64,000 nucleotides of DNA, taken from NCBI GenBank assembly GCA_900316845.1, contig ONEG01000016.1:46687-110686 (forward strand). The letters run 5' to 3'. Origin of the DNA: an uncultured Bacteroidales bacterium (lineage in GTDB: Bacteria; Bacteroidota; Bacteroidia; Bacteroidales; Paludibacteraceae). Shown piece after piece: positions 23,449 through 48,272 of the stretch. The notes under the pieces are model-generated. The model was given only the letters and a program-made list of their open reading frames with translations. It was not told the DNA's origin and did not search any database. The position numbers were made by a program, and so were the translations under genes. Numbering within the stretch: position 1 is the first letter of the stretch; each line of letters begins with the position of its first letter.

Positions 23449-23470
23449 CACCCGAAAAAAATGTTGCACT

Positions 23471-25006: not shown

Positions 25007-25066
25007 TTTGTTGCAAAATATGTTACATTTGTTGCATTGAAACATTTGTGGTATATTTTGCAACAT
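25007..25066 (+). promoter_or_regulatory. 60-bp conserved operator candidate, copy 1 (before susC)
   Basis: It matches 41902-41961 at 54 of 60 positions. It contains TGTTGCA at 25009-25015 and again 21 bp later at 25030-25036, and the inverted TGCAACA at 25059-25065, 6 bp before the promoter. Half-sites two helical turns apart suit an AraC-family activator. Confidence 0.75.
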
Positions 25067-25071
25067 TATTA

Positions 25072-25103
25072 TTTGTGCATATGTATAAATAGATGTACTT
25101 TTG
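25072..25103 (+). promoter_or_regulatory. Promoter of the fructan susCD operon
   Basis: TTTG 25072-25075 and TACTTTTG 25096-25103 with a 20-nt spacer, 49 nt before the susC-like start codon. Confidence 0.8.
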
Positions 25104-25152
25104 CAGCGGAATTTGTAAACAATGGATGTTGAAATAACTAAAATTTGGTAAC

Positions 25153-28100
25153 ATGAAAAGGAAAGTACTTTTCTTAATGACCTCTATTCTGCTGTGTTTG
25201 GGAACGATGCAAGTTTACTCTCAATCACGTGTTTCAGGCGTCGTTACAGATGCCGCTACCGGTGATCCGATTATTGGAGCATCCGTATTGGAAGACGGGA
25301 CAACGAACGGAACTATTACCGATTTGAATGGACAATTTGAGATGAGTGTTGCGGATGGGGCTAAAGTGGTCATCTCCTATGTCGGATATAAATCCCAAGT
25401 TCTCACTGCTTCGGCTATTATGCGAGTAGTTATGAGCGAGGATTCCGAGATATTGGAAGAGGTGGTAGTTACCGGTTATACGACCCAGCGCAAAGCTGAT
25501 TTGACGGGTGCTGTGGCTGTATTAGACATGTCAAAGGTGACTGCGGAGAGCAACCCTAACATGGTTGGTTCATTGCAAGGACGTCTTCCCGGTGTACAAA
25601 TTACCACGGACGCCGCCCCAGGATCGGGAGGATCGAGTATCAGAATACGCGGAATGGGTACGATGAACTCGTGTGAACCGCTGTACATCATAGATGGTGT
25701 TCCTTCTCAAGAGAACCTCAATTCGTTAAACCCGTCCGATATAGAATCGATACAGGTGCTGAAGGATGCGGCATCGGCTTCTATCTATGGTTCCCGTGCC
25801 GCCAACGGAGTCGTGATTATCACTACGAAGAACGCCAAGGGAGAAAAGGTCAGTGTCGATCTCGGGTATTCCGCGACTGCTAATACGGTAGCCCGAACGT
25901 ATAAGATGCTCAATGCCGAGCAGTGGGGAGAGGCATATTGGATGGCCTATCGGAATGCCGGAATGATTCCTTCGCATCCGTTTTATTCCGAGTATGCAGG
26001 AAAAGTGAGTTTGCTGCCCTATATAGATGAAGAGGGGAAAGTTAAGTCCGCTAATACGGACTGGCAGGATGCTGTTTACCGAACCGCATGGTCGCATAAT
26101 GTGAATGCCAGTGTATCGTTAAACACGAAATCGGGCGGAGTGCTCTTCTCCGGCAATTATATGAACCAGCAGGGCATGATGAAGGAGACCTATTACGAGC
26201 GTTTCTCTGCGCGTTTAAACTCTCATTTTAACATAGGTAAATGGGTAAAAGTAGGTGAAAACCTGATGGTAGCCAAATGGAAGAGTAATGGTTTTGGTAC
26301 CAATTCGGACGGCGGCATTCCATTTACCGCAATGCGTCAGCATCCGGCTATTCCGGTGACGGATATGGACGGGAACTATACCAGTCCGTTACTTCTCGCC
26401 AATTCGGATATTGCGAACCCAGTTCATGTGCTGGCTAACGGCAAAGACAATAGTTCGGACTCATGGCGTATATTCGGCAATGCGTATGTGGAAGTTAATC
26501 CGTGGGTAAAAGGACTGAATCTTAAGAGCAATATTGGTATAGAACATATTCAATATCTGAATGATAATCTCAATCGCCGTCTAAATGCTTCGGATATCGC
26601 CTCGGTGGGTCGCGATTACGGAACCGGAGACACCTGGACTTGGTCCAATACTTTGTCCTATTCTAACGTGTTTAAAGACAAGTATCACGTTAGCGCGTTG
26701 CTTGGAACGGAGGCGATTGGATACAAATATCAGTCGATCGGTGCATCTCGTCAGTCGTACATCTTTGAGACAGATCATTTTATGACTATTGATGCAGGAG
26801 ACCAAACCACCTCCACCAACGGAGGAGGGAAGCAGACATGGGCGTTATTCTCCGTCTTCGCCAAGGCAGATTATAACTACGCAGACCGATATCTAATCAG
26901 CGCTACTATCCGTCGTGATGCCACATCCCGATTGGCAAAGGAGAATAATGCCGGTATTTTTCCGGCTGTTTCTGCTGCGTGGCGTTTCACAGCCGAACCC
27001 TTCTTTCCTGAGAACCCGTGGCTGACAGATGCCAAGATCCGTGTCAGCTGGGGACAGAATGGTAATGCAGCAATCAGTAATAATTATGCTTCCTATAGTA
27101 CGTACGTGTATGCGGGGAATGCTTTTTACGATTTGAACGGAGACAACGAAACGCCCATTGCCGGTATCGCTTTGGCCTCTACAGGCAATAAGAACCTGCG
27201 ATGGGAGACCACCACTCAGACGAATGTGGGTATGGATTTGGGATTATTCAACAACTCGCTCACCATCAATTTTGATTGGTACTTGAAAAATACGAAGGAT
27301 ATGATTACGGCTCCTCCGGTACTATCAACGGCAGGGGAAGGAGCATCTTATCTCGCCAATACCGGCGATATGCGCAATATGGGATTTGAGTTGAATGTGG
27401 ATTATCACAGCCCTGATTATCACGGATTTTCATGGAATGGTAATTTCAACCTTGGACATTATGAAAACAAAGTGGTCAAACTTAATGATTTTGTAAATTC
27501 TATCGGAGGAGATATTCGTCTGATGGAGGGTCAGCCGATGGGAGTATATTATGGTTATGTAGCGGACGGATTATTCTGCTCGATGGAGGAAGTGGCGAAT
27601 CATGCCGAGCAAACCGGTAAGGGCTTGGGACGAATCCGTTATCGCGATATAGACGGGAATGGTCTGATCGATGAGAGAGACCAATGTATAATCGGCAATC
27701 CGAATCCTAATGTGTCAATGGGTTTGAATCTGGAATTCCGTTATAAAGGCTTGTCTCTTTCGACGTTCTTTTATTCCGAGTTGGGATTTGACATCATCAA
27801 TTCCACCAAGCGTCAGTTGCAGTTCATGAGTTATGGAGACCGCAGTTCAAACCGCAGTGCTGAGATCCTGAACGCATGGTCAACCTCAAACCAGGATGCC
27901 ACTATCCCGGCAATCAGCGCGACGGATGTCAATAATGAGGTACGCATGTCTACATATTTTGTAGAGAACGGCAGTTACATGAAGATGAAATATCTAAAGT
28001 TGTCCTACGACATGCCCAAGATAGTGACAAACGCTATCCGTGCGCAGCGATTCAATATCTATGCGCAAGTGGAGAATGTATTTACCATCACGCGCTATTC

Positions 28101-28206
28101 CGGTTTGGATCCGGAACTTCCATTAGGAGGCTATGGTGCTCGTGTTGACAACGGTCCGTATCCTCGAAGCCGGAACTTCTTGATGGGTATTAATTTTACT
28201 TTTTAA
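25153..28206 (+). CDS. SusC-family TonB-dependent transporter (fructan locus)
   Basis: The 1017-residue outer-membrane barrel imports oligosaccharides with the SusD-like lipoprotein that follows. After the signal peptide there is a carboxypeptidase-regulatory-like domain (VSGVVTDAATGDPIIGASVL), the TonB-box region EEVVVTGYTTQRKADLTGAV, the plug with RIRGMGT and LYIIDGVPSQ, and SIQVLKDAASASIYGSRAAN typical of SusC. It ends in an aromatic barrel strand (FLMGINFTF). It is first in an operon that probably runs to 38578. Confidence 0.96.
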   Translation: MKRKVLFLMTSILLCLGTMQVYSQSRVSGVVTDAATGDPIIGASVLEDGTTNGTITDLNGQFEMSVADGAKVVISYVGYKSQVLTASAIMRVVMSEDSEILEEVVVTGYTTQRKADLTGAVAVLDMSKVTAESNPNMVGSLQGRLPGVQITTDAAPGSGGSSIRIRGMGTMNSCEPLYIIDGVPSQENLNSLNPSDIESIQVLKDAASASIYGSRAANGVVIITTKNAKGEKVSVDLGYSATANTVARTYKMLNAEQWGEAYWMAYRNAGMIPSHPFYSEYAGKVSLLPYIDEEGKVKSANTDWQDAVYRTAWSHNVNASVSLNTKSGGVLFSGNYMNQQGMMKETYYERFSARLNSHFNIGKWVKVGENLMVAKWKSNGFGTNSDGGIPFTAMRQHPAIPVTDMDGNYTSPLLLANSDIANPVHVLANGKDNSSDSWRIFGNAYVEVNPWVKGLNLKSNIGIEHIQYLNDNLNRRLNASDIASVGRDYGTGDTWTWSNTLSYSNVFKDKYHVSALLGTEAIGYKYQSIGASRQSYIFETDHFMTIDAGDQTTSTNGGGKQTWALFSVFAKADYNYADRYLISATIRRDATSRLAKENNAGIFPAVSAAWRFTAEPFFPENPWLTDAKIRVSWGQNGNAAISNNYASYSTYVYAGNAFYDLNGDNETPIAGIALASTGNKNLRWETTTQTNVGMDLGLFNNSLTINFDWYLKNTKDMITAPPVLSTAGEGASYLANTGDMRNMGFELNVDYHSPDYHGFSWNGNFNLGHYENKVVKLNDFVNSIGGDIRLMEGQPMGVYYGYVADGLFCSMEEVANHAEQTGKGLGRIRYRDIDGNGLIDERDQCIIGNPNPNVSMGLNLEFRYKGLSLSTFFYSELGFDIINSTKRQLQFMSYGDRSSNRSAEILNAWSTSNQDATIPAISATDVNNEVRMSTYFVENGSYMKMKYLKLSYDMPKIVTNAIRAQRFNIYAQVENVFTITRYSGLDPELPLGGYGARVDNGPYPRSRNFLMGINFTF

Positions 28207-28239
28207 GAATAGAAATTATTGATGATAAGGAATAAGCAT

Positions 28240-29889
28240 ATGAAAAAGTATCGTTACCTATTAGCCGGTTTGCTGGCAATGAGTATGGCATCTTGCGATA
28301 GTCTGCTTAACCAAACACCGTACGGTTCCTTTACCGCCGATCAATTGGACGACCAATCGGTAGAAGGACTTTTGGCGGCGGCGTACGCCGGTTTGAATGC
28401 GCACTATTTCGGAAACAACGAAGCGTTCGCCGGACCGAGTACAAACTGGATTTTTGATGTCCGCTCCGACGATGCATATAAGGGGGGAGGTGCGGTAACC
28501 ATGGAGGCTAATATTCACCAATTGGAGATTGGCGTTATCAACAGCGATAATATCAGTTTGGAGAATAAATGGCAGAATGATTTTTACGGTATTACACGTG
28601 TGCACAAAGCGATGAAAGCCTTGGATGAGATAGAAAATATTTCTCATCGCGAGCAGATGAAGGGAGAGTTAACTATTTTGCGTTCATGGTTCTATTTTGA
28701 TATGGTGCGTATCTTCAAGCACGTACCCTATTTTCGTTACACAGATGATCCGAGTACTGTGCGCAATGATGTATTCACACAAGACAGCATCATGCGTATG
28801 CTTCAGTCTGACCTGGTCGAAGCCTATGAATCCATGGAAGAGGCATCCCTTTCTCCGGCTCGTTTCAACCGCTATACCGCTGCCGCATTAATGGCAAAGA
28901 TAAGTGCGCAACTTAGTGATTGGCCGAATGTAGAGAAATACGCACAGATAGTGATTCAATCCGGAAAATACGAGTTGTATCCGAACTATCTGGACATGTC
29001 CAAGATAGAGAATGATAACTTATATGAATCCATCATAGCGTTGCAATGCGTAGTGACCAGCGACTTCGGTCAGATCAATTGGTCGAACCTGCTTAATACG
29101 ACTTATTCAGAGGGTAATTTGTATGGTACCGGTGATGATTTCTTTATCGCTTCCCAGAATCTGGCTGACTGTTTTCGAACGGATGCTAACGGTCTTCCGT
29201 ATCTGGACGAGAGTTTGGCTCCAACCGGAGATGGCAACCGCATGAATGGAGGTTATCGCGGGAATATGGATCCGCGTGTAGATTTCACCATGGCACGTAT
29301 CGGTCTCCCCTTCCGGGGACACTTGTACACCCGCAGATGGTGTCGTGCTTATGATACATATGGTGAGTTCAGTGGAAAGAAATGGCTGGTGGAACCGGAA
29401 AATGACCAGATGGTGAAGGGTTTCCCATGGGGAGCCAGCAACCTCAACTTCATCTTCCTTCGTTACGCAGATATCATCCTGCTCTATGCAGAAGCGCTCA
29501 TTGAGCAGAACAAAAACTTGGATATAGCTCGCCAATATATCAATATGATTCGTGAAAAGGCGGCGCGCTCCGTAGATCCGTACTATTCGCCGGTTGATGT
29601 CAATCCAATGATCAGCACCTATAAGGTTGGAGAATACATGTCTGCCGGCTGGACTCAAGATTATGCCCGTAAAGCGGTTCGTATGGAGCGGCGGCTGGAA
29701 TTAGCCATGGAAGGTCATCGTTGGTTTGATTTGTGCCGTTGGGGAATCGCTGTTGAGACTATGAATGAATATTATCGTACAGAATGCGGACTTCGCTCAT
29801 ACTTACAGGGTGCTATGCTTTCTGAGCAAGATGTCTATATGCCTACGCCGTATGCTGAGGTGCGCACGGCAGACGGGTTGTATAAATAA
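28240..29889 (+). CDS. SusD-family glycan-binding lipoprotein (fructan locus)
   Basis: The 549-residue surface lipoprotein (lipobox MSMASC) has SusD hallmarks: an N-terminal DSLLNQTPYGSF, TPR-like helices (REQMKGELTILRSWFYFDMV), and the C-terminal RMERRLELAMEGHRWFDLCRWG. It caps the SusC transporter and binds the substrate. The ATG at 28240 (MKKYRYLLAG) is chosen because it starts the signal peptide; ATGs further upstream add seven poorly conserved residues. Confidence 0.95.
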   Translation: MKKYRYLLAGLLAMSMASCDSLLNQTPYGSFTADQLDDQSVEGLLAAAYAGLNAHYFGNNEAFAGPSTNWIFDVRSDDAYKGGGAVTMEANIHQLEIGVINSDNISLENKWQNDFYGITRVHKAMKALDEIENISHREQMKGELTILRSWFYFDMVRIFKHVPYFRYTDDPSTVRNDVFTQDSIMRMLQSDLVEAYESMEEASLSPARFNRYTAAALMAKISAQLSDWPNVEKYAQIVIQSGKYELYPNYLDMSKIENDNLYESIIALQCVVTSDFGQINWSNLLNTTYSEGNLYGTGDDFFIASQNLADCFRTDANGLPYLDESLAPTGDGNRMNGGYRGNMDPRVDFTMARIGLPFRGHLYTRRWCRAYDTYGEFSGKKWLVEPENDQMVKGFPWGASNLNFIFLRYADIILLYAEALIEQNKNLDIARQYINMIREKAARSVDPYYSPVDVNPMISTYKVGEYMSAGWTQDYARKAVRMERRLELAMEGHRWFDLCRWGIAVETMNEYYRTECGLRSYLQGAMLSEQDVYMPTPYAEVRTADGLYK

Positions 29890-29908
29890 TTGAGAAAGGG
29901 TATTGGCT

Positions 29909-31093
29909 ATGAGAAACTTCTTAACAATAGTATTAATCGCCTTGACGGCGGGATGGTTTGCGTCATGCAATACGGTAGAGCCAGAGATGTCCGCCAGCAA
30001 GGGAAGGAAGAAAGTATATAATCTGCGTTATACCAACGAAGGGCGAACGCTGTATCTGACGTGGAATCTTGATGCGGATTCTACTATGTCGGGCATTCAG
30101 ATTGCCCGTAATGGTGAGAACCCCGTTACGATTGACAGCCTTCTTACCTCTTATACTGTCCGTCACGTTACCCCTAATCAGGATGTGCTCTATACGGTCA
30201 AGATCTTCTACCGGGACTCTGTGGTGTCGGAGGGAGTTTCTGTACGCGTACATATCAAATATGACCAGCCGGTCTATGCGGGTTATGTGCTTAGTACCGG
30301 TTCGATTGCCGAATTACCGGATGATGATGAGCGGGCTGCCGCTGAATGGTTCGATCGTGAGTACGTGCAGAAAAACAGAGGACGGTTCATCCCTATCTGG
30401 GAGGTGGGTAATGTAAACTTGGATGAAGTGGCATGCCTCTGGGTGCATATTGACCGGCAGGGTATGCCGGCAGGTTGGCAAAACCTGACAGGTGGATTTA
30501 GCGATCCAGTATTTGTTGCTAACCTGAAAAGCTATGTGGAGGAGGGAGGAAATCTGTACTTGTCCACGCATGCTACGCAGCTGTTGGTAGCTATCGGTCG
30601 TATCACTGAGGCGCAAAGTCCCAACGAGATATCTACAGGAGAGGGCGGCTACGGACCCGACGTATGGACTATGAATGCGTACCTCGGTGCCGGTTCCACT
30701 CCCAGCTATGACCATCGGGGGTATGAGTTCTTCAAGGATATGAAACTGGATATATACAATAATTACGAGTATACTTCTTTCCCGATGGTTTCTCCGGGTA
30801 TCCGAGAGGATCATAACTGTCTGTGGAGGCTATCCGACATCAAATTCCCCTCCGGTTCGGATAAAGTACGCGGCTGGGAGTTAGCTACCAAATCTACAGC
30901 CTTGGCTACATGGGGACAGAATACGGAGCTGAACTATATCGGACTTGTGGATTTCGCTATCATGGGTAACTATCGAGGACGTATTGTGGCGATGGGTCTC
31001 GGATGCTATGAATGGGCGCTCCATGATGGAAACGCCTACCAGTATCAAATTGAGAAATTGACAGAGAATATTATTGAAAGTTTGCGCAAATAA
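29909..31093 (+). CDS. DUF4960 surface glycan-binding lipoprotein
   Basis: The 394-residue lipoprotein (lipobox ending ASC near residue 20) has a fibronectin-like domain (about 32-115, VYNLRYTNEGRTLYLTWNLD) followed by a DUF4960 domain (about 118-390). The latter shows ERAAAEWF, VACLWVHIDRQG, YVEEGGNLYLSTHATQLLVA and a late REDHNCLW motif. This is the layout of the surface fructan-binding protein found beside SusD in the B. thetaiotaomicron levan locus, so it probably binds fructan on the surface. It begins 19 bp after the SusD-like gene. Confidence 0.85.
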   Translation: MRNFLTIVLIALTAGWFASCNTVEPEMSASKGRKKVYNLRYTNEGRTLYLTWNLDADSTMSGIQIARNGENPVTIDSLLTSYTVRHVTPNQDVLYTVKIFYRDSVVSEGVSVRVHIKYDQPVYAGYVLSTGSIAELPDDDERAAAEWFDREYVQKNRGRFIPIWEVGNVNLDEVACLWVHIDRQGMPAGWQNLTGGFSDPVFVANLKSYVEEGGNLYLSTHATQLLVAIGRITEAQSPNEISTGEGGYGPDVWTMNAYLGAGSTPSYDHRGYEFFKDMKLDIYNNYEYTSFPMVSPGIREDHNCLWRLSDIKFPSGSDKVRGWELATKSTALATWGQNTELNYIGLVDFAIMGNYRGRIVAMGLGCYEWALHDGNAYQYQIEKLTENIIESLRK

Positions 31094-31094
31094 G

Positions 31095-33605
31095 ATGTTT
31101 AAACATTGTTTATACAGTATTTCCGTTTTATTGTCGGCGTCAATGATCTGTTCAGCACAGGTCTATATGCCGCTTGAGATACAAAACGGCACCACTCAAG
31201 AGATGACCAGCGGAACGCGAGTGACGGTACATGGAGCCCGTACTCCAATTAGTATTCCGGCTGCCGTGGGAAACGGGTTCCGCACAGACGGATACTCAAG
31301 TTATATCCAGATGCCGATAAACGGTCTGATAAAGAACAATGCCTTGGGTGTGAACATGAAGGACTCCGTAGTCTCCACCTTAACCATCAGTTTCTGGTGC
31401 GCTATTGAGACCTATCCGATGATGACGGAGGCTACTATGACCCCGTTACGACAGTATTATACCGATATTCTTGGGAATATTGACGACGAGAAACATACCG
31501 GTTTTGCCTTCGAACTGAGTAATCAGGGCCGGTTCCGGTTCCGTTGTTATTCCAGTGGATGGGAAGTAGTGTGCGACGGCGGTGATGCGAAGTTATGGTG
31601 GAACCAATGGCATCACTTGGTAGCGACCATTGACGGTTATAATCAGGAAATCCACTTTTACGACAATGGCATGGAAGTGGCAGGAACAGGGTGTATGTAT
31701 GATGCCACGGTTGGTGAGAAAGACTTGGTTATCGGCAAGAGTGTGAATGATACGGTGATGTCTGGTATGTTCAATCTGAATTACTTTAATGGTATTATCG
31801 ATGAGGTACGCATTGATACAGGTATCTGGGCGATGAGTGATATTATGGAGACTATCCCTCAGAATGAGGTGGATTTCAACATCCCGATAGATGCCTATGC
31901 CAATGATCTCTGCCGTCCTCGGTACCATGGTATGCCTGCGCAAGGGTGGACAAATGAGTCACACGGTATGGCATATAGCGACGGTAGATACCATCTGTTC
32001 TTCCAGAAAAACGGGAATGGGCCTTACATGGCGCGTCTGCACTGGGGACATATCTCTTCTCCGGATCTATGTCATTGGCGCGAAGAAGTAGTAGCGCTGA
32101 TGCCTGATCAGGATTATGATATCAAGGGATGCTGGTCCGGATGTATTGTTCGCGATGATGAGATAACCGGTGGTCAACCATGGGCGCTCTATTCGGCGAT
32201 TGGTAACCGGGAGAGTTTCAATCCGGAGAATCCGGAAGACGGTAGTCACTGCGAACTCATGTTCGCTTCGCCCAAAGATGGCGGACTTAAATATTGGCAC
32301 AAGCAGGCGCAGCCGGGTATCTGTTGCCCGTTTAGGGATGATTTCCGTGACCCATATTTCTTCCGAGCCAACGGCAGACCCTATATCATTGCGGGGTGTA
32401 GTGATGGCGGTCTGGGTATCGCTACTTTGCATCGTTATGAAGGCGATAACCGGTGGAGCAGCGATGGAGATGTCTTCTTTCGCGAAGGACCCTTGGCGGA
32501 TGCGGGTAATTTCTGGGAAATGCCCAACGTGACACCCTTTGGCGATAACCGTTGGGTGTTTACCTGCACACCTATGTCCACCTCGTATGGCGTACGTTGT
32601 CTGTACTGGGTAGGCGGGATTGACGGAAATGGCCATTTTAATGCTTGGCAGGGACCGAACACGATCGAACTGCCCGGAATGGCGAAGGACGGCTTCGGCT
32701 TACTGTCTCCGACGATCTTACAGCACGGTGGCAAGACCATTGCGCTGGGTATCGTTCCCGACAAAGCCAGCACTACGCTTAACTACACCTTAGGCTATGC
32801 CCACCTGTATTGTTTTCCCCGTGAGTGGTGGTTGGATGGCGAGGGTAATTTGCACCAAGTACCTTTCGAAGGCCTATATGCGCTGAGAACGCAGGAACGA
32901 TTCGTAAAAAGCAATCTGACTCTTCCTCAGGACACCATCATGAATCTTTCTCCTATTGAGGGGCGGTCCGTAGAACTATGCACCACCTTTGAGGTCGGTG
33001 AAGCGGAAGTGGGCTTCTCTCTTCTTAAAAACTCCTACGGAGACATGAAGGTCTATATCGATCCTCAGGAGCAGAAATTAGTGGTGGACATGACCTCTAT
33101 AGGCCGTCGGGCGAATGATATTGGCGTGTTCGATGGTTATTACAGTTCTATCATTCCTTCGGGTCTTCCGCAAGGATCGGTCTGCAAACTCGATGTATTC
33201 TTCGATCATTCGATTCTGGATATCTTCATAAATGACCGGTATGCGACTTCCATCCGCGTCTTCCCGTATGACTATTCCGCTAAAGGATGTGAGTTTTTTA
33301 CAAAAGGCGGTGAGACGATGGTGCACACTCTGGAGGCATACGGACTTGGGGAGATTACCCACGACACACCGGCGCAGGGTGTAGAAACTCCGCAAGCGGA
33401 ATCACCGATTACCGTTAAAGCGGACAAGATCTATTATGACCTTTCCCTTCCTTCCGTACTTCGCGTGTATGATAATTTGGGCCGCATCTTGCAGGCACAT
33501 CAGGTACGCGGGAAAGGCACTTTGACTATTGCGCACAAGGGGTATGTCCTTGTGAGTATTGAAAATGCAATTCAACATTTTACAAAATCCGCAGTGATAT
33601 TATGA
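31095..33605 (+). CDS. GH32 family glycosidase with N-terminal LamG domain and T9SS-like tail
   Basis: The 836-residue enzyme has a signal peptide, a concanavalin/LamG domain (about 25-250, LTISFWCAIE and KLWWNQWHHLVATIDG) and a GH32 five-blade propeller plus beta-sandwich (about 265-740). The family motifs are divergent: the usual WMNDPNG reads WTNESHG (E288 in place of the nucleophile aspartate), RDP is intact (FRDPYF, D419), and WECP reads WEMP (E475 kept). The C-terminus (LRVYDNLGRILQAHQVRGKG then GYVLVSI) is a type-A T9SS sorting domain, implying surface delivery. The start at 31095 is one base after the preceding stop. It probably attacks fructan chains outside the cell, but specificity cannot be read. 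Confidence 0.87.
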   Translation: MFKHCLYSISVLLSASMICSAQVYMPLEIQNGTTQEMTSGTRVTVHGARTPISIPAAVGNGFRTDGYSSYIQMPINGLIKNNALGVNMKDSVVSTLTISFWCAIETYPMMTEATMTPLRQYYTDILGNIDDEKHTGFAFELSNQGRFRFRCYSSGWEVVCDGGDAKLWWNQWHHLVATIDGYNQEIHFYDNGMEVAGTGCMYDATVGEKDLVIGKSVNDTVMSGMFNLNYFNGIIDEVRIDTGIWAMSDIMETIPQNEVDFNIPIDAYANDLCRPRYHGMPAQGWTNESHGMAYSDGRYHLFFQKNGNGPYMARLHWGHISSPDLCHWREEVVALMPDQDYDIKGCWSGCIVRDDEITGGQPWALYSAIGNRESFNPENPEDGSHCELMFASPKDGGLKYWHKQAQPGICCPFRDDFRDPYFFRANGRPYIIAGCSDGGLGIATLHRYEGDNRWSSDGDVFFREGPLADAGNFWEMPNVTPFGDNRWVFTCTPMSTSYGVRCLYWVGGIDGNGHFNAWQGPNTIELPGMAKDGFGLLSPTILQHGGKTIALGIVPDKASTTLNYTLGYAHLYCFPREWWLDGEGNLHQVPFEGLYALRTQERFVKSNLTLPQDTIMNLSPIEGRSVELCTTFEVGEAEVGFSLLKNSYGDMKVYIDPQEQKLVVDMTSIGRRANDIGVFDGYYSSIIPSGLPQGSVCKLDVFFDHSILDIFINDRYATSIRVFPYDYSAKGCEFFTKGGETMVHTLEAYGLGEITHDTPAQGVETPQAESPITVKADKIYYDLSLPSVLRVYDNLGRILQAHQVRGKGTLTIAHKGYVLVSIENAIQHFTKSAVIL

Positions 33606-34678: not shown

Positions 34679-36203
34679 AACTAATCTCATCGTATTGCTT
34701 TTTGCGACAGGATTGCTTGCCTGCGCCGGACCGAAACCGGAAGATGAACCGGTGGTTCCTCCTCAAGAGGACACCACCCAAGCGGAACCGAAGGTATCCC
34801 CGACAACGCGTCCTGATCTCTATCGCCCTCAAATCCATTATACCCCACTTCATAATTGGAGCAATGACCCCAACGGACTGTTTTATAAAGACGGGGTATG
34901 GCATCTCTATTACCAGTTCAATCCGAATGGTATCGAGTGCGATTTCGGAGGAATGAGTTGGGGACACGCTTCCTCATCCGACCTCATGCATTGGCAGGAA
35001 CATAGCCCGGTGCTTTACCCCGATCATATGGGAGCGATGTACTCCGGATGCTCCGTGGTGGATCATGATAATGTAGCAGGGTTTGGACACGGCGCGGTAT
35101 TGGCATATTATACAGCCTCCGGAGAGAAACAGCTTATCTGTCTCGCGATCAGCACCGATGGCGGAGAAACATTCCGAAAACATGACCATAATCCCATTGT
35201 GCCCTCAACGGGACTGAGTAATTTCCGGGATCCCAAAGTGGTGTACGATGCCAAACGGGGACGATGGACCATGCTGGTCTCCAGAGGATGGGATCTCGGC
35301 GCAGAGATATGGCATAGCTATAATCTGATGCAGTGGGATTTTGACGGTATCTTCCGAGTAGATATAGAGCGCTGCAATATGAGTCAGTGGGAGTGTTGTG
35401 ACTTACTGTATTTTGAGCAAGCCGATAAATGGGTTGCTATCGTCAGTATAAACCCGAACGGATATATCACCGGCTCATCTACCATGTATTTCGTGGGACA
35501 GTTTGATGGTGTCACTTTTACGCCCGATAACGATGATTATCCCCGTTGGTTGGATTATGGAGCAGATTGCTATGCCGGTGTTACCTTTGACAATGCGCCG
35601 GACAATCGCAAGATCCTGATAGCATGGATGAATAACTGGGATTATGCGCCTGCTTGTCCGCCCTCCGCGTGGAAAGGGGCATATACCATCCCTCGAGAAC
35701 TATCCTTGCGCTACATAGGAGCGCATTGGGTATTGTGCTCTGAACCTGTCAAAGAGTTGACTAAGCTGGCAGGAGAATGGTCTGAGGTGACGGACGAGAT
35801 AGAAAATATAGGTGGCGATTATGCAGATGCGTGGGAAGCGCAGATAACGCTCTCGCTTACGGAGAATGCTACCATCACGCTATATAACAAGTACGGCAAC
35901 GAATATACGATTACGGTTAATGCCACTCAGCGCCGTATCTATTGCAACCGTGGAGGCAAGACCGGAGAGTTTAATTTCAGTACCCTGTTTGCTGTACCTT
36001 CCATGAGTGCTCCGATTGAGGGGGATGAGCAATCAATCGTACTTGATATCATCGTGGACCAAAGCAGTGTGGAACTGTTTGCCGGAGAAGGCAGTACCTG
36101 CTTCACCAATAATGTATATCCGCGTACGATTTATCGTAATATGCGCGTGGACGGTGTAGTGAAGGAGATGAAAGTGCGGACTTTGGAAACCATCTGGAAA
36201 TAA
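34671..36203 (+). CDS. GH32 fructanase lipoprotein
   Basis: The 510-residue lipoprotein (MNKTNLIVLLFATGLLAC) is a complete GH32 enzyme that cleaves beta-fructosidic bonds. WSNDPNG carries the nucleophile (D66), FRDPKV the transition-state aspartate (D187), and WECCDL the acid/base (E241); the C-terminal beta-sandwich ends with the sequence VELFAGEGSTCFTNNVYP. A longer frame begins upstream, but the ATG at 34671 starts the signal peptide. Endo- or exo-action on levan or inulin cannot be decided. Confidence 0.93.
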   Translation: MNKTNLIVLLFATGLLACAGPKPEDEPVVPPQEDTTQAEPKVSPTTRPDLYRPQIHYTPLHNWSNDPNGLFYKDGVWHLYYQFNPNGIECDFGGMSWGHASSSDLMHWQEHSPVLYPDHMGAMYSGCSVVDHDNVAGFGHGAVLAYYTASGEKQLICLAISTDGGETFRKHDHNPIVPSTGLSNFRDPKVVYDAKRGRWTMLVSRGWDLGAEIWHSYNLMQWDFDGIFRVDIERCNMSQWECCDLLYFEQADKWVAIVSINPNGYITGSSTMYFVGQFDGVTFTPDNDDYPRWLDYGADCYAGVTFDNAPDNRKILIAWMNNWDYAPACPPSAWKGAYTIPRELSLRYIGAHWVLCSEPVKELTKLAGEWSEVTDEIENIGGDYADAWEAQITLSLTENATITLYNKYGNEYTITVNATQRRIYCNRGGKTGEFNFSTLFAVPSMSAPIEGDEQSIVLDIIVDQSSVELFAGEGSTCFTNNVYPRTIYRNMRVDGVVKEMKVRTLETIWK

Positions 36204-36223
36204 TAATTAAAATTATAACTATC

Positions 36224-38578
36224 ATGAAAAAATCTATCTTTTTATCGCTTGTCCTTGGCATCTGCATGATGGCACAGGCTAAAGTGGCATTTCTCGTTCC
36301 TGCCGGTAATACCGACATCAATTCACTGCCGTTTGAGGAGTATACGACCAATGATGACGGTATCTTCAGACAACATGAACAGAGTCCGGAGCGTAGAGCC
36401 TGGATATGGTTCAACGAAGCCTATGTGGCTTTCGGGTTGGGACAGTTTATCTGCTTTGATGACTTGAACAACATCCCGTCGGACATCCATGCTATCTGGA
36501 TCTACGTGGACCGTGTAAACTTCAACGCTGAGGCTTTTGATGCATTGTTTGCGGATCATATCAGCGAACTGCAGGCTTTCGTCAATGCAGGTGGTAACCT
36601 CTTCCTTTGCAAGCAAGCCACCCGTCTGCAGAAAGATCTCGTAGGCGCTACGATGGCTAACGGAGAAATCATCGTTCCTGACTACAACGACGGCGGTTAC
36701 CAAGGCGCTGCTATCTGGGGCGTGGACTTTAAGTTTGAGTTTGCGGAGGATAACGTATGGTCCAACGGGGATCATCCGATGTTCCAGTATGCACCGCACA
36801 GAAATGATAATTACGCCGAGCTCATCTGGACTAACGGCGGTATGATGACCGACCATAACTGCGGTATAGGTATCGGTGCGATGGATATGACCAGCATCAC
36901 TGACGCAGCCGGACTGACGACTTTCCAAACCCGTAATAACTGCCGTCTGCTCGGCTGTTGGGCAAACGGTGACGGCTGCCACTACGGCGGCGCCATCGAG
37001 TTCTATCCTACCGGCGCTCGTCAGGGTACCGTCATCACGATGGGACTCGCTGCTTATTCGTATATCAATAACAATGCAGGTTTCGGCTGGGATAACACCC
37101 TGGCACTGACCTGGAATACCCTTAACTACCTCGATCACAAGCAAGCGACTACGCAACAAAACCGTATCGCTTACCTGCTGCCTTCTACCATCCTCACCTT
37201 GCCCGGTGGCGAACAACCGGAATACAACGCTGCTATCTGGTTCCGCGATAACTATATCAATGCTCAGCAACAAGGCTGCTTCGTGACGATTGAAGACCTG
37301 CCGACCCTTTACAGCAAAGGCGTCACCACCCTTTGGGTCAACATTGAGCGCGTAGGTATCACTGCCGAAGATCCATTCTTCGCTATCTACGCAGACAAGT
37401 TGCGCGATTACATCCAAGCCGGCGGTAACGTACTGCTTACCAAACAGGCTGTTTATTTCACTTACGCTATGGGCCGTATCGGTTATGCACCGGCACTCGA
37501 TTCATATGATTATACGACCGAGGACCGCGGACAACTCCGCAGCATGCAGACCGTCATGGGTCTGAGCGACTGTGTCGCAGAAGATGAGCATCTGGATATG
37601 AGCGCACACCGTATATTCAACAATATGCTCAGTTACTGGGATACCAAGAGCATGTTCTTTGTTGCTCCGGGTTGCCTGAAGACCTATAATTATTGTTCGT
37701 GGATGGATTATCTCCGCGCATCCGAGGAAGAGACGCATTACGATAACTGCCTGATTCAACGTCTGCGTGATTTCGAAAGCGACTGGAGTGCAACCGTGCT
37801 TGCAGGTCGTGGCGGTATCGGCGACTACTGCTTGCCGGATATCATTGAGTTCAACGCTACCAACGAATGGCAGGGACGCATCCTGACCATCGGTTCGGCA
37901 GCATATCAGTGGGGAACCGCCAATAACAATGTGGAGCGTCGAAACCTGACGACTCTTACCGCTAACTGCCTTGCTTATCTCGCGAACGAACCGGTTCAGG
38001 AACAAACCTTTACCCGTACGGCAACAGCAGGTCAGTTCGGAACGATATGCTTCGAGTATGCCGTAGCGGCAGATAAGATCGAAGGCGCTGAGATGTATGA
38101 GATCCATTCGTTTGATACAACGGGCGATTCAGTTATTTTGACCAAGACAGACAATATGGAGGCAGGAAAACCGTATATCTATTATGCTACGGCTTCGCTA
38201 ATCCAACTCAGCTATACCGGAATGAAAGAGGAAGCCAAAAGTCATAACGGTCTGATTGGTTTCATCGGCTGGTCGGAGACCGATACCCATGAAGTGGAAG
38301 CCGGCTATTATGCATTGGCAGACGATGTGCTCAAAACGGTCAGTGCACAGAACCCGGTAGTGCTCTCGCCGCGATATGCGTATGTGGATACGCTTGAGAT
38401 CCCGGCTTATACACAGATGCCGCAAGGAGCATGCAAGAAGATCCGATTGATCAAAGACACTGCGTCGGCTATCGGCGAAACGATGCAGAAAGAGTCCGCT
38501 ACCAAATACATCCAAAACGGTATGTTATTCATCGAGCGGAACGGCAAAAAATATACGGTCATTGGAAACCGATTGTAA
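36224..38578 (+). CDS. Secreted protein with two DUF4960 domains and short T9SS-like tail
   Basis: The 784-residue protein has an ordinary signal peptide (no lipobox) and two DUF4960 domains, about 20-305 (AWIWFNEAYVAFGLGQF, AIWIYVDRVNF, FVNAGGNLFLCKQATRL) and 311-590 (AAIWFRDNYIN, TLWVNIERVG, YIQAGGNVLLTKQAVYF). A beta domain follows (about 595-735, GTICFEYAVAADKIEGAEMY and MEAGKPYIYYA), then the short tail (ATKYIQNGMLFIERNGKKYT then VIGNRL). Export is probably by the type IX system rather than as a lipoprotein. Last gene of the operon that starts at 25153. Confidence 0.82.
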   Translation: MKKSIFLSLVLGICMMAQAKVAFLVPAGNTDINSLPFEEYTTNDDGIFRQHEQSPERRAWIWFNEAYVAFGLGQFICFDDLNNIPSDIHAIWIYVDRVNFNAEAFDALFADHISELQAFVNAGGNLFLCKQATRLQKDLVGATMANGEIIVPDYNDGGYQGAAIWGVDFKFEFAEDNVWSNGDHPMFQYAPHRNDNYAELIWTNGGMMTDHNCGIGIGAMDMTSITDAAGLTTFQTRNNCRLLGCWANGDGCHYGGAIEFYPTGARQGTVITMGLAAYSYINNNAGFGWDNTLALTWNTLNYLDHKQATTQQNRIAYLLPSTILTLPGGEQPEYNAAIWFRDNYINAQQQGCFVTIEDLPTLYSKGVTTLWVNIERVGITAEDPFFAIYADKLRDYIQAGGNVLLTKQAVYFTYAMGRIGYAPALDSYDYTTEDRGQLRSMQTVMGLSDCVAEDEHLDMSAHRIFNNMLSYWDTKSMFFVAPGCLKTYNYCSWMDYLRASEEETHYDNCLIQRLRDFESDWSATVLAGRGGIGDYCLPDIIEFNATNEWQGRILTIGSAAYQWGTANNNVERRNLTTLTANCLAYLANEPVQEQTFTRTATAGQFGTICFEYAVAADKIEGAEMYEIHSFDTTGDSVILTKTDNMEAGKPYIYYATASLIQLSYTGMKEEAKSHNGLIGFIGWSETDTHEVEAGYYALADDVLKTVSAQNPVVLSPRYAYVDTLEIPAYTQMPQGACKKIRLIKDTASAIGETMQKESATKYIQNGMLFIERNGKKYTVIGNRL

Positions 38579-38582
38579 GAAA

Positions 38583-38610
38583 TGTTGCGAAATGTGCTAC
38601 TTTTGTTGCA
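38583..38610 (+). promoter_or_regulatory. Half copy of the fructan-locus operator
   Basis: Matches the first 28 bp (from TGTTGCA) of the 60-bp element at 24 of 28 positions, with TGTTGCG 38583-38589 and TGTTGCA 38604-38610, again 21 bp apart. It lies 14 bp before the -33 box of the next promoter. Confidence 0.65.
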
Positions 38611-38624
38611 GCGCGCGTATTTAG

Positions 38625-38656
38625 TTTGCGCATGTGCGATAAAAGTAGTACCTTTG
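38625..38656 (+). promoter_or_regulatory. Promoter of the second DUF4960 secreted-protein gene
   Basis: TTTG 38625-38628 and TACCTTTG 38649-38656 with a 20-nt spacer, 39 nt before the ATG. Confidence 0.85.
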
Positions 38657-38695
38657 CATCGCAAAAACGAAAACACAAACAAAATCTTTAATACA

Positions 38696-41600
38696 ATGAA
38701 AAAGTTTTTATCTTTATTTTTTGCTTCGGTATTTACCTTGAGCCTCTCGGCGCAGGTGTACTACTTGTTGCCAAATTCTGCTGATGCCAACTGTGAGAAT
38801 ATTACGAACCAGTATGATCATCCCACAGAAGGAAACCGCCTGCAATGGGAAACAAGTGAAGGTGATGTTTACCAATGTCCTGAGCGAAATGCGTTTGACT
38901 GGTTCGCTCGCTCTTACTGCGATGCCTCTATTCCTTGGATTCATAATGAAGGAGACCACCAAATTCGCCGCATCGTAACGTTCAAAGACCTTACTGATGG
39001 ACGCTTGGCTGCAGAAGGGAATATGTTCAATGACGTCAAAGTTATCTGGGTCAATGTGGACCGTAATATGACTGAAGCAGCCTTTGATGCTATGTTTCCA
39101 ACGGATGTACGCACAGCTCTCGCTAATTACGTGAAAGCCGGCGGTAACTTGTACTTGTCAACTTTTGCGGCTCGTTTGGCATATCTTATAGGACGAACTC
39201 CGGAACCTGGATTCTCGGAAAATAATGGTTTTGCTTCTGCCGGTGACGAATGGAAACTGACAGCACATTTCAAGAAAGGAGGAGATGGATCTTACGATGT
39301 GGATAAACATGGGCACGCTATATTCAAATACCTGAGAGATAACGACCTGTATGCAGAAGACTATCATTTCCACATGCAAAAGGGAACTCCCCGTACAAAT
39401 CGTAACTGTCTTTGGGATATTGACGATAATATAACCGCCTTCAACAACTTCCAAAACGATAACACATGTGGTATCTTAGGCAGTTGGGGACATACGGCGG
39501 AATTTCTCTGTGCTGGATTAGTAGAATTCTATCCTGTAGGAGACTGGAAAGGAACGATTATCACCAATGGTTTGGCTGCCTGCTCTTTCGCTTCTGCCAA
39601 CACCGATCGCTTCTGTGTAGAACACTTGACCAGTGGTATCTTGGATTACCTCAAAGCCCGTCCATGTGCTGGTAATAACACCACTCCGATGGAGACAAAA
39701 CTGGAGGAAAACGGCTTTTATCCTTCAGAAACGCAAAGCTTCCTCAAGCTGCATCCGGTCTGCGAAGGACTGAGTGCTACTTATACACTGACCAGCAATC
39801 CGGATGGAAAAGCTCGTATTCAGGGGGGTGTGATAGTAGGTGAAAATACGATCACTCAACTCCAGTTCAAAGAAGCCGGTACGGTGACTCTGCATATCAC
39901 ATTGACGGAGAACCGTGAGTTTATGAACTGGCCTAAGGGTACCTATGAGTACGACCGTGCGATTACGTTCGCGTATGCGGATGAAGCAGCTGCGCAAGCA
40001 GGTCCCGGCCTTGCTTGGCCGCATCACTTCGAGACCGGTGCCGTAGGACCGAATAGTGTCATTACGCTGCCGGAAGGCGCAAGCTATACCGTAGAAGGAA
40101 ATGCAACGCTGAGCGAGAACGTATTGACACTCGCTAACGTAGCTTCCGGTACGGTAACTGTGCACGCATCGGTAACTGAGACCGGTTACCACGAGGCATG
40201 GCCCGCAGGTGTTTATAACTACAACAACTCCCTCTCTTTCCATGCTGCAGAAGTTGGTTACCTCCTGCCGGCGGCTGAGTCGATTGACCATCTGAAGTTC
40301 ACAGCAGATGAGAATTATCAAGGCCAGCAGCCGGAATACAATGCGGCGAAGTGGTTTGAAGATAATTATATCACCTGTGCTAACCCCAAGGGACGTTTCG
40401 TAACGGTAGATGAGTTACCGACGCTGTTTGCAAAAGGTATCAAGGCTCTCTGGGTAAACATCGAGCGCGTCAATATTGACAATGCCGATGGTCTGTTAAC
40501 TGCTTGCTTGACAGATGATGGCCTTAAGACTTACATCCAAGCCGGTGGTAATGTGCTGCTTACCAAACAGGCAACCTATCTCGCTTACACCATGGACCGT
40601 ATCGGTTATGCTCCGGAATTCAATGCAGGTGGGTATGAGACCGACAATTTTGGTGCTCAACGTAGTATATCAACACGTATGGGTACACATAACGAAGTGG
40701 ATGAGGCACTGGATATGAGCAATCATCGACTCTATGCGGATATGTTGAGTTGGACGGATAGCAAGAATGTCTATCTCGTAGGCGAGACCTGCAAGAAGAC
40801 CTATAACTACTGCTCATGGCAAGACTTTATGCGTAAAGAAGGCGAGGAAGCGCATTATAACAATAAAAAGATCCAGCGCGTACGAGACTTCGAAGCCGAC
40901 TGGAATGCAACCGTCTTTGGTATCCGTGGCGATATCGTCGACTACTGCTTGAGTAATATCATTGAGTTCAATGCTACCGGCAATTGGCTGGGACGCATCC
41001 TGACCATCGGTTCAGCAGCTTATCAGTGGGGTAGCGAAAACCCGACAGCAGAGCTCGATAATGTGAAGAAACTCACGGCTAACTCCCTCTCTTACCTCTT
41101 GGACGAGCCGCTTGCTGACAAGGTTTATACGCGTCCTGACTTGACCCCGGGTATATATGGTACTATCTGCTTTGACTATGCGGTAGAAGCCGGACATATC
41201 GAGGGCGCCGAGATCTATGAGTTGACTTCCTTCAATGCTACCAACGACGGTGTTATCCTCACTCAGGTGGATGCTATGGTAGCCGGTCGTCCGTACTTCT
41301 TCTTGGCTACGGCTAACGAACTGCGTCTTACCTACAACGGTCAACGCGTAGCTGCCGGTTCGTACCACGGTTTGGTAGGACATATCGGTGAAACGACCCT
41401 GCATATCACGCCGAATGACAACAACTATATCCTCTATAACAACGAGTTGTTGCTCGTCAATACGAATGATGTCGAATTGCCTTCTTACCGCGCGTATATC
41501 AATAAGTATGATGAGATTCCGGCCTACTCGGAGCCTACATCCAACGCACCGCGCCGTATCATGGCAATCGAGCCGCCGCATAATGCACCGACAGCGGTAG

Positions 41601-41719
41601 AGGCTGTTGATATGCAGGCTGCACAAGGCGTCTATGATATCATGGGTCGCAAACTCAGTGCTCCGCAAGGAAATGGCTTCTATATCATCAATGGCCAAAA
41701 AGTGATCATCACCCAATAA
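38696..41719 (+). CDS. Large secreted protein with two DUF4960 domains, Ig-like middle and T9SS tail
   Basis: The 1007-residue protein has a signal peptide (MKKFLSLFFASVFTLSLSAQ), a first DUF4960 domain (about 20-330, NAFDWFARSYCD, VIWVNVDRNMT, YVKAGGNLYLSTFAARLAYL), two Ig-like stretches (about 335-515), a second DUF4960 domain (about 520-830), a beta domain (GTICFDYAVEAGHIEGAEIY) and a type-A sorting domain (VYDIMGRKLSAPQGNGFYII then NGQKVI). Its second half is closely similar to the second half of the preceding protein, so one arose by duplication. The start is the ATG after the promoter, not an upstream in-frame start. Confidence 0.83.
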   Translation: MKKFLSLFFASVFTLSLSAQVYYLLPNSADANCENITNQYDHPTEGNRLQWETSEGDVYQCPERNAFDWFARSYCDASIPWIHNEGDHQIRRIVTFKDLTDGRLAAEGNMFNDVKVIWVNVDRNMTEAAFDAMFPTDVRTALANYVKAGGNLYLSTFAARLAYLIGRTPEPGFSENNGFASAGDEWKLTAHFKKGGDGSYDVDKHGHAIFKYLRDNDLYAEDYHFHMQKGTPRTNRNCLWDIDDNITAFNNFQNDNTCGILGSWGHTAEFLCAGLVEFYPVGDWKGTIITNGLAACSFASANTDRFCVEHLTSGILDYLKARPCAGNNTTPMETKLEENGFYPSETQSFLKLHPVCEGLSATYTLTSNPDGKARIQGGVIVGENTITQLQFKEAGTVTLHITLTENREFMNWPKGTYEYDRAITFAYADEAAAQAGPGLAWPHHFETGAVGPNSVITLPEGASYTVEGNATLSENVLTLANVASGTVTVHASVTETGYHEAWPAGVYNYNNSLSFHAAEVGYLLPAAESIDHLKFTADENYQGQQPEYNAAKWFEDNYITCANPKGRFVTVDELPTLFAKGIKALWVNIERVNIDNADGLLTACLTDDGLKTYIQAGGNVLLTKQATYLAYTMDRIGYAPEFNAGGYETDNFGAQRSISTRMGTHNEVDEALDMSNHRLYADMLSWTDSKNVYLVGETCKKTYNYCSWQDFMRKEGEEAHYNNKKIQRVRDFEADWNATVFGIRGDIVDYCLSNIIEFNATGNWLGRILTIGSAAYQWGSENPTAELDNVKKLTANSLSYLLDEPLADKVYTRPDLTPGIYGTICFDYAVEAGHIEGAEIYELTSFNATNDGVILTQVDAMVAGRPYFFLATANELRLTYNGQRVAAGSYHGLVGHIGETTLHITPNDNNYILYNNELLLVNTNDVELPSYRAYINKYDEIPAYSEPTSNAPRRIMAIEPPHNAPTAVEAVDMQAAQGVYDIMGRKLSAPQGNGFYIINGQKVIITQ

Positions 41720-41738
41720 TAAGGAAAGGAGTAGTCTT

Positions 41739-41888
41739 ATGAAAAAGTATATTATTCCCAACACCGCTGTAATCATCCTCTTAGGCGCTTCTTTGATGGA
41801 TACCCAGACAGGGAGCGTACAACAAGAAAATAGTATTAAAATAGGAGGAAAGACAAGCGATATAACCGGACCTATAGTTCCGTTCTAA
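41739..41888 (+). CDS. Small peptide gene (49 residues) after the DUF4960 gene
   Basis: ATG at 41739 follows a GAAAGGAG purine stretch, a rare Shine-Dalgarno-like signal here. It encodes MKKYIIPNTAVIILLGASLM followed by a polar 29-residue tail ending in GPIVPF. The basic start and short hydrophobic run could be a leader or a single membrane helix. Similar short MKKYIxP peptides are familiar beside Bacteroidales surface-protein genes but have no known function. It lies 19 bp after the DUF4960 gene, probably on the same transcript. Confidence 0.55.
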   Translation: MKKYIIPNTAVIILLGASLMDTQTGSVQQENSIKIGGKTSDITGPIVPF

Positions 41889-41901
41889 AGGAATATTCTA
41901 A

Positions 41902-41961
41902 TTTGTTGCAAAATATGTCATATTTGTTGTAGTGAAACATTCGTGGCATATTTTGCAACAT
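41902..41961 (+). promoter_or_regulatory. 60-bp conserved operator candidate, copy 2 (before GH32-MFS)
   Basis: 54 of 60 positions match 25007-25066. It has TGTTGCA 41904-41910, TGTTGTA 41925-41931 and inverted TGCAACA 41954-41960. No clean TAnnTTTG box lies between it and the gene; TTTG 41923-41926 with ATATTTTG 41948-41955 inside the element is the nearest approximation. Confidence 0.75.
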
Positions 41962-43387: not shown

Positions 43388-43445
43388 ATTGTTAAATGTC
43401 TAAATAAATGAACAAATGGAAAATGACAAAATGGTAAATAAATGG
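43386..43445 (+). repeat. AAATGGTAAAT-type repeat spanning the MFS start
   Basis: A degenerate 7-8-nt-period tract (AAATGTCT, AAATAAAT, GAACAAAT, GGAAAATG, ACAAAATG, GTAAATAA) fills the spacer and supplies the first codons of the transporter gene. Confidence 0.65.
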
Positions 43446-46490: not shown

Positions 46491-46522
46491 CTTGCATATA
46501 TCAAAAAAAAGTCGTACCTTTG
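46491..46522 (+). promoter_or_regulatory. Promoter of the SusR-like regulator
   Basis: CTTG 46491-46494 and TACCTTTG 46515-46522 with a 20-nt spacer, 24 nt before the ATG at 46547. Confidence 0.85.
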
Positions 46523-46546
46523 CTCCGAAATTCATATAAAATACTT

Positions 46547-48133: not shown

Positions 48134-48172
48134 TCTTACATCCACTACTTTTTTCTATAATATTTTATTTTG

Positions 48173-48209
48173 CAAATCGCTAGAAATAAGCGATTTGTAA
48201 TTTTTTTTA
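48173..48209 (+). terminator. Terminator of the SusR-like gene
   Basis: CAAATCGCT 48173-48181 and AGCGATTTG 48189-48197 form a 9-bp stem with a 7-nt loop, followed by TAA and eight Ts. Confidence 0.85.
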
Positions 48210-48227
48210 TGCTACTAACGCTACTTT

Positions 48228-48258
48228 TTCACATTCACATATTGTGTATTTTTGTGAA
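48228..48258 (+). promoter_or_regulatory. Possible regulator site before the dextran susC gene
   Basis: TTCACA 48228-48233 and TGTGAA 48253-48258 are inverted and surround the -33 region, next to direct repeats GCTACT-AAC-GCTACT (48211-48225) and CACATTCACAT. The SusR-like protein is a candidate binder. No second copy was found for comparison. Confidence 0.3.
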
Positions 48259-48272
48259 TTGTAGTACCTTTG
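48241..48272 (+). promoter_or_regulatory. Promoter of the dextran susCD operon
   Basis: ATTG 48241-48244 and TACCTTTG 48265-48272 with a 20-nt spacer; the ATG follows at 48319. Confidence 0.75.

Follow-up and report, generated by a model that had tools for sequence, protein, structure and literature searches.

Control of a fructan locus by HTCS_Fru (BT1754) is already known from the fructan PUL of Bacteroides thetaiotaomicron, and the system described here is probably a version of this control. HTCS regulators carry AraC-type domains at their end, and the motif form given for them in the accessible part of the published account is that of 21-bp direct repeats (PMC3878776). ChIP enrichment of BT1754 peaked, in the accessible part of the respective report, over the 3' region of the BT1754 gene (PMC3404733), i.e., at a place equivalent to that of the first operator copy presented below, and it was therefore counted in favor of an operator at this position. 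A literature search of titles and abstract openings retrieved none naming the regulator or the operator considered here, which is no claim of their absence in print.

The window, i.e., the whole stretch of 64,000 nucleotides that was analyzed, originates from an uncultured member of the Paludibacteraceae, probably one of the rumen type. We regard it as quite probable that a 57-bp element in this window represents the operator of the adjoining sensor, that its copies coordinate the fructan locus and that the regulator works without a phosphorelay.

Fructan locus and its probable regulator

The locus comprises the regulator gene, a susCD pair, three GH32 enzymes, DUF4960 proteins, a transporter and a sugar kinase.

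23462-23468, + strand: single TGTTGCA within the regulator's short leader, 2 bp ahead of the conserved ATG (23471)
23471-24982, + strand: regulator gene (ORF listed from 23384), assigned by Pfam, alignments, PDB 2x7x and a model with fold search
25153-28206, + strand: susC, TonB-dependent transporter
28219-29889, + strand: susD
29903-31093, + strand: DUF4960 protein
31074-33605, + strand: GH32 enzyme with Laminin_G_3
33602-34678, + strand: DUF4960 protein
34548-36203, + strand: GH32 enzyme
36224-38578, + strand: DUF4960 protein
38696-41719, + strand: DUF4960 protein (ORF listed from 38582)
41984-43387, + strand: GH32 lipoprotein-like enzyme, ATG 23 bases past operator copy 2
43416-44576, + strand: MFS transporter
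45050-45955, + strand: PfkB sugar kinase, fructokinase-like

The regulator consists of a lipobox-like Cys47, a periplasmic sugar-binding domain, one membrane stretch within a long helix and an AraC HTH. Its sensor domain is of the HTCS kind (Peripla_BP_4, E=1.7e-37) and has the fructose sensor BT1754 as its top PDB match (2x7x, E=8.8e-63; Foldseek E=5.9e-24), and the C-terminal HTH (HTH_18, E=2e-19; PF12833 and PF00165) is common to HTCS and AraC/XylS-family proteins. The kinase domains of an HTCS, HisKA and HATPase_c, were not found in the Pfam search, nor was its receiver domain. Histidine kinase and receiver are both present in the homologues L125 and L119, and the sampled homologues from other genera of the family have the size of kinase sensors. 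The kinase relay customary for such sensors has apparently been lost here, and a good candidate for a sugar switch of simplified design results. The TGTTGCA that the sequence-only reading had noticed in the leader of the sensor gene was recovered, and it is exact in 16 of the 32 usable ortholog leaders (window included, L070 left out) and conserved as TGTTG(C/T)A in 19 of them.

Sequence and symmetry of the operator

Two full copies and one half copy of the element are present in the locus, and promoters follow two of them.

25009-25065, + strand: full operator copy 1; + half-sites 25009-25015 and 25030-25036, - half-sites 25038-25044 and 25059-25065
25072-25075, + strand: -33 box TTTG, 6 bp past operator copy 1
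25096-25104, + strand: -7 box TACTTTTGC, TA 30 bp past operator copy 1
38583-38610, + strand: half operator, a single + module 14 bp ahead of -33, a spacing also found in L070
38625-38657, + strand: half-copy promoter with TTTG (38625-38628) and TACCTTTGC (38649-38657)
41904-41960, + strand: full operator copy 2; no canonical promoter follows

Recomputation gave exactly the agreement claimed before for the shared 60-bp element, i.e., 54 of 60 positions between 25007-25066 and 41902-41961 and 24 of 28 between the half copy and 25009-25036; the half copy matches the second copy at 21 of 28 positions. Among 20 first-order Markov windows, the top + strand match to the 60-mer reached 33 positions. 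The TGTTGCA-type half-sites start 21 bp apart in all three copies, and an inverted TGCAACA is found in both full copies (25059-25065 and 41954-41960), as had been reported; copy 1 has an additional inverted half-site, TGAAACA (25038-25044). The full copies are 57-bp imperfect palindromes composed of two inverted 28-bp modules, each of the form TGTTGCA-N14-TGTTGCA, and the reverse strand matches the query around copy 1 at 75%. As in HTCS-type operators, two sites stand in direct repetition at a distance of about 21 bp. The half copy, with its single module, is an unusual arrangement. The module pattern has seven matches with at most one mismatch in the own genome, five of which are the modules of the three copies; at three or fewer mismatches it is uninformative, since both strands yielded 371 matches vs 278 for the reversed control.

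Promoters and spacing

Among 70 distinct instances of the element in the fetched relatives, a canonical Bacteroidota promoter lies behind 65. The -7 TA is located exactly 30 bp from the element in all of these 65, the gap between operator and -33 box is 6 bp in 64 and 7 bp in one, and in each of the 65, all full instances, the inverted module adjoins the -33 box. The sequence-only reading had stated that the second half-site lies 21 bp closer to the -33 box in the half copy and that helical phase is kept. The difference holds against copy 1 (35 bp to TTTG vs 14 bp in the half copy) but not against copy 2, which lacks a promoter, so that it rests on one full copy. The single + module at 14 bp from -33, to which the phase argument refers, occurred nowhere but in the window and L070, while in the promoter-bearing full instances it is the inverted module that borders the promoter. 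Between copy 2 and the ATG of the GH32 gene at 41984, no TTTG-N19..21-TAnnTTTG promoter was found, and control of this gene by copy 2 is therefore uncertain.

The symmetry of the element might also be read as that of an RNA, either a hairpin terminator of the sensor gene or a leader structure. The predicted strand fold is strong (-24.9 kcal/mol, z -5.63, equaled by 0 of 200 shuffles), and both sides are changed in 10 of 23 pairs, a number reached by 0 of 500 shuffles. However, symmetric change would also result from a two-fold protein site, and the pairs from 15/43 through 19/39 are disrupted in between 9 and 28 of the 37 sequences. The element moreover stands upstream of the -33 box at fixed spacing in the 65 promoter-bearing instances, hence outside the transcript of that promoter, and no matched sensor gene precedes it in G020, G021, G105 and at one site of G034. 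An action as RNA is accordingly very unlikely.

Distribution in the assembly and among relatives

The genome search proposed with the sequence-only reading, which had named many copies ahead of unrelated genes as evidence against itself, found the 2.34-Mb assembly to contain three copies at E<=1e-3, all inside the fructan locus; the next-best match had E 0.05. The first recognizable gene within 1.8 kb was susC (42), GH32 (23) or DUF4960 (4) in 69 of the 70 distinct instances from the relatives. A partial site in G105 (C41) has no recognized fructan genes close by. Copies of 90% identity ahead of nonhomologous genes are what a MITE-like palindromic repeat that landed in the locus by chance would leave behind, but such an origin is already contradicted by the mere three copies, by the constant register to the promoter and by the fructan-locus genes that follow nearly every instance, and it is barely credible.

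At E<=1e-6, the element was present in 35 of 52 genus genomes with a regulator match vs 0 of 69 without one, counts for which Fisher's p is not an independent-sample probability because the searched genomes are related. Weak matches appeared in three of the 69 regulator-less genomes at E<=1e-3. The palindrome goes along with the membrane sugar sensor across dozens of related species. Where the regulator has at least 60% identity, the element was located at most 94 bp past the sensor stop in 33 of 39 loci; no element was found behind the regulator in the other six, one of which ends there. Regulator and element lie on separate contigs in G020, G021 and G105, where the element still precedes susC and in G021 also GH32. 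Among the 17 regulator-bearing genus genomes in which no element was found at E<=1e-6, 13 have diverged regulators (34-51%) and three have fragments only (G051, G110 and G116); in G010, which is 68% complete, none was found in spite of a 64% regulator. These same loci served to train both the model and the matrix, so that diverged operators are missed. Repeats behind the diverged regulators are visible by eye, and the one scorable promoter had a palindrome score of 0.53, which falls inside the range of the shuffles (mean 0.49, highest 0.63).

A different regulator, e.g., a catabolite regulator or another AraC protein, might bind the element, the sensor then being linked by position alone. The double inverted module, which is unlike the single direct repeats of HTCS regulators in the accessible part of the published account (PMC3878776), would fit such a protein. 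The co-occurrence with the sensor even on separate contigs, the close placement behind its stop and a copy number unlike that expected of a global regulator argue against it, and we judge it distinctly unlikely. The comparative evidence supports the 57-bp element as a real operator, with the regulator as its likely binder, and co-occurrence and gene context together speak for the earlier proposal that the element controls the fructan locus, with the reservation made for copy 2.

Other genera and families

A 58-bp version of the palindrome precedes susC at the kinase-bearing homologue L125 of another family (G128; model E=2.0e-6), with TAATTTTG 30 bp past it (spacing by eye). No clear operator emerged from a promoter scan of nine outgroup loci; that of L125 was found by inspection near susC. 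Of the 39 genomes searched in other genera of the own family, all with kinase-sized homologues, none had the element at E<=1e-6, and five had matches at E<=0.01. Behind the kinase-sized homologues of 16 genomes of other genera, one canonical promoter (L235) and no clear operator by eye were found. At the weak model matches in other families (L208-L210), nothing matched the fructan genes of the window, and they were taken as chance.

Proposed mechanism and comparison with known systems

Judging from its likeness to BT1754, the periplasmic sugar-binding domain would sense fructose or a close relative, and the single long helix would, without any phosphorelay, carry the signal across the membrane to the paired AraC domains of a dimer. 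One module may hold one dimer on its two TGTTGCA-type half-sites, 21 bp or two turns apart, and the full operator would then be formed by two inverted modules with an overlapping shared center, the outer half-site of the inverted module being locked 6 bp ahead of -33 and 30 bp ahead of -7. Binding would most likely activate transcription, as for BT1754. A further-reading scenario, which is possible but rather doubtful, is that a kinase-less descendant signaling via one continuous helix has replaced the fructose HTCS in this rumen-type Paludibacteraceae genus, and that the double operator is a two-state switch: since its + and - modules overlap at the center, a dimer would occupy only one of them at once, the promoter being activated in one state and silenced in the other.

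If the proposal is true, a gut-bacterial sugar sensor can do without its phosphorelay and keep its DNA-binding logic, and the operator offers both a candidate for a compact fructan-responsive promoter module and an annotation marker for fructan loci of uncultured rumen bacteria. L125 with its kinase and the window regulator without one, both with similar operators, make a natural comparison for working out what the relay contributes.

XylR is a soluble cytoplasmic protein, whereas the window regulator has a lipobox-like Cys and a membrane stretch. According to the accessible part of the source, XylR of Escherichia coli and XylRA of Vibrio resemble the window regulator in the fusion of a sugar-binding domain, there of the LacI type, to an AraC domain without a kinase, and their sites are two direct repeats, as in the window module (PMC12125979). 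SusR-type regulators of Bacteroidota likewise exert one-protein control of a susCD locus via direct repeats, but they belong to another family, and the accessible text gives a motif spacing of 67 or 77 bp for SusR (PMC3878776). Compared with HTCS_Fru, the window regulator lacks HisKA, HATPase and receiver, and its operator is a double inverted module instead of the one direct repeat of the published HTCS motif form. Both nevertheless have the sensor family and the AraC-type output in common, and both adjoin susCD/GH32 genes.

Results

The fructan locus carries sites built on a 28-bp module, TGTTGCA-N14-TGTTGCA; a full element (57 bp) joins such a + module to an inverted (-) module.

23471-24982, regulator (sensor) gene
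25009-25065, copy 1, full element before susC
38583-38610, half copy, single + module ahead of the promoter of a DUF4960 gene (38696-41719)
41904-41960, copy 2, full element before a GH32 gene (41984)

The three sites had been proposed in a sequence-only reading, and recounting returned the same positions and identities (54/60 between the full copies, 24/28 for the half copy). These are far above chance: across 20 Markov windows, no stretch matched the 60-mer at more than 33 positions. The distances from the second half-site to the -33 box (copy 1, 35 bp; half copy, 14 bp) were likewise reproduced. Overlooked at that time was that the full copy is an imperfect palindrome, in which positions 1-7 and 22-28 of the element hold the + half-sites, and 30-36 and 51-57 the - half-sites; it matches its own reverse strand at 75%, and the - module is picked up by the same pattern. 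The genome search for further copies suggested by that reading was performed with R1, a sequence-only model built from 37 elements, on the 2.34-Mb assembly (96.6% complete, 37 contigs): three sites were found at E<=1e-3 (2.1e-18, 6.1e-18, and 7.5e-5), all within the fructan locus, with no fourth at this threshold (next-best E = 0.05). Because R1 had been trained on both full window copies, their scores carry no information; what the search adds is the absence of further copies.

Among 121 genomes of the genus, including that of the window, the element at E<=1e-6 was present in 35 of the 52 that have a regulator match and in 0 of the 69 that have none (Fisher p = 7e-18, with genomes treated as unrelated). 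At E<=1e-3 the counts were 37/52 and 3/69, and one of these three, G029, has a regulator C-terminus (52%) at the contig edge ahead of the site. The 79 genomes of other families yielded one match at 2.0e-6 (G128) and three weak ones near 1e-4, the filters having been stricter in the genus search and many genus genomes having contributed training sequences. In three genomes (G020, G021, and G105) the element was absent within 18 kb behind the regulator and located on another contig, ahead of susC and, in G021, GH32, at sites outside the training set, which suggests that regulator and element are linked in trans. G105 also has a second, partial site, with no recognised fructan gene nearby.

The element follows the regulator stop in 33 of 39 loci with a regulator of at least 60% identity (window counted); it was not found in L122 (sequence ends), L099 (1.3 kb examined), or L080, L085, L094, and L095 (18 kb examined). 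Across all fetched loci, 65 of 70 distinct instances are followed by a promoter, TTTG-N19..21-TAnnTTTG, starting at 6 bp (64) or 7 bp (1), and its -7 TA lies exactly 30 bp past the element in 65/65. This spacing is an independent result because the instances were selected by the element matrix and not by promoter. The five promoter-less instances are copy 2 and its L104 counterpart, L177, and two whose -33 box is a near-miss (L157 and L098). Of the four half-sites, the outer - one varies least, reading exactly TGTTGCA in 52 of 55 distinct sequences; next come the two + half-sites (43 and 43), and the inner - half-site is exact in 10 and mostly reads TGTTTCA (30). Within 1.8 kb of the element, susC is the first gene recognised in 42 instances, GH32 in 23, and DUF4960 in 4, with none in one case. 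Behind the diverged regulators of L112, L114, and L115 (39-43% identity), different but related-looking repeated motifs follow the stop (by eye), perhaps co-diverged operators.

The fetched DNA contains 210 distinct canonical promoters, of which 141 lack any module, 58 carry the + module at gap 35 together with the - module at gap 6, four have the - module alone at gap 6, and six are variants, e.g., the + module alone at gap 34 in L107. The half copy is the single case of a + module alone at gap 14. L070 shares this 14-bp layout with CTTG replacing TTTG, and in L104 a full element occupies roughly the corresponding position ahead of a DUF4960 gene; a single + module is thus rare, yet retained in two species. 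The GH32 start is almost abutted by copy 2 and by its L104 counterpart; the promoter is kept by the similarly spaced copy of L070 and by the L068 GH32 copy. It appears to have been lost behind copy 2 and the L104 counterpart, and the GH32 gene may be transcribed from the half-copy promoter upstream or, alternatively, from a weak candidate promoter, TTTG-N20-(T/C)ATATTTTG, within the element. The interval separating copy 2 from the DUF4960 gene holds a 50-codon frame (41739-41888) whose start resembles a leader; this frame is near-identical in L104, and L070 has a different short frame there.

The locus contains four DUF4960-bearing proteins (29903-41719), two with two matched domain stretches; speculatively, they are perhaps surface fructan-binding proteins. 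The next locus encodes, within 46520-48319, a SusR-family regulator (NF058541, 434 bits, under the cut-off of 480), at whose gene end, before a long ORF at 48319, a 28-nt direct repeat of 71% identity occurs (48126-48153 and 48202-48229). Its 76-bp spacing resembles that reported for SusR motifs (67 or 77 bp; PMC3878776), and a two-copy repeat can be chance.

Discussion

The regulator encoded ahead of copy 1 has a sugar-binding Peripla_BP_4 domain at residues 63-320 and, at 458-531, an AraC-type HTH; Pfam detects neither a kinase nor a receiver domain. Ortholog alignments place its start at Met30 (23471) and show an invariant Cys47 in a lipobox-like context. In the predicted structure (mean pLDDT 83.5, pTM 0.60), a single helix (340-444) spans a hydrophobic stretch at ~379-402 and runs towards the AraC domain. 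Both by sequence (E=8.8e-63) and by fold, the closest solved structure is that of the BT1754 fructose-binding domain (2x7x); BT1754 is HTCS_Fru of Bacteroides thetaiotaomicron.

By record title, 63 loci belong to metagenome genomes of Bacteroidales or Paludibacteraceae, several of them rumen-derived; the 51 complete frames among these loci, from a search biased to close relatives, all have 478-516 residues. In the family sample, 103 of 300 genomes match the regulator, 62 in the genus of the window and 41 in other genera, of which 39 have an open frame of 908-979 residues. The frames of the other two, G356 and G362 (432 and 472 residues), align with the kinase-bearing sensor of L125 over almost its entire length, across a broken frame; their loci (L237 and L238) hold kinase-bearing homologues, in another genus, split in two ORFs. 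Among four relatives examined, Pfam found HisKA, HATPase_c, and receiver domains in L125 (another family) and L119 (same genus) and none of them in L183 and L162. Long frames (899-960) also occur in the genus members G009, G024, and G366. This distribution suggests loss of an ancestral kinase, as opposed to its original absence. Five genomes (G063, G075, G120, G007, and G034) each have two kinase-less regulator genes, and 55-56% paralogs in L102 and L103 have mainly the inverted module retained behind them.

In G128, with a kinase-bearing sensor (949-residue frame), a 58-bp palindrome of similar half-sites precedes susC, with TAATTTTG 30 bp behind and no TTTG at -33, and L119, a kinase-bearing paralog within the genus, retains an inverted module at the same 30 bp (both counted by eye). 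The operator form is therefore not tied to kinase loss; nor is it general, since none of 39 searched genomes with kinase-sized homologues from other genera of the family has the element at E<=1e-6.

Published HTCS motifs (PMC3878776) are direct repeats ~21 bp apart, interpreted as sites for a dimer that sits on one face of the DNA. For BT1754, PMC3404733 reports that enrichment was greatest in the 3' part of the gene encoding it, which corresponds to the position of copy 1. In the simplest reading, each module would take one regulator dimer. If an AraC domain covers ~19 bp, as the pattern TGTTGCA-N5-TGNNACA suggests, the inner half-sites of the two modules would overlap, and both modules may not be occupied at once. 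By analogy with BT1754, the regulator would act as an activator. An exact TGTTGCA immediately ahead of the regulator start in 16 of 32 ortholog leaders (TGTTG[C/T]A in 19) may mark autoregulation.

Overall, the element is real and conserved and most probably forms an operator system. Its kind is known, namely HTCS_Fru control of fructan loci. New are the kinase-less regulator, confined among the sampled family genomes to the genus of the window, and the double palindrome locked to the promoter.
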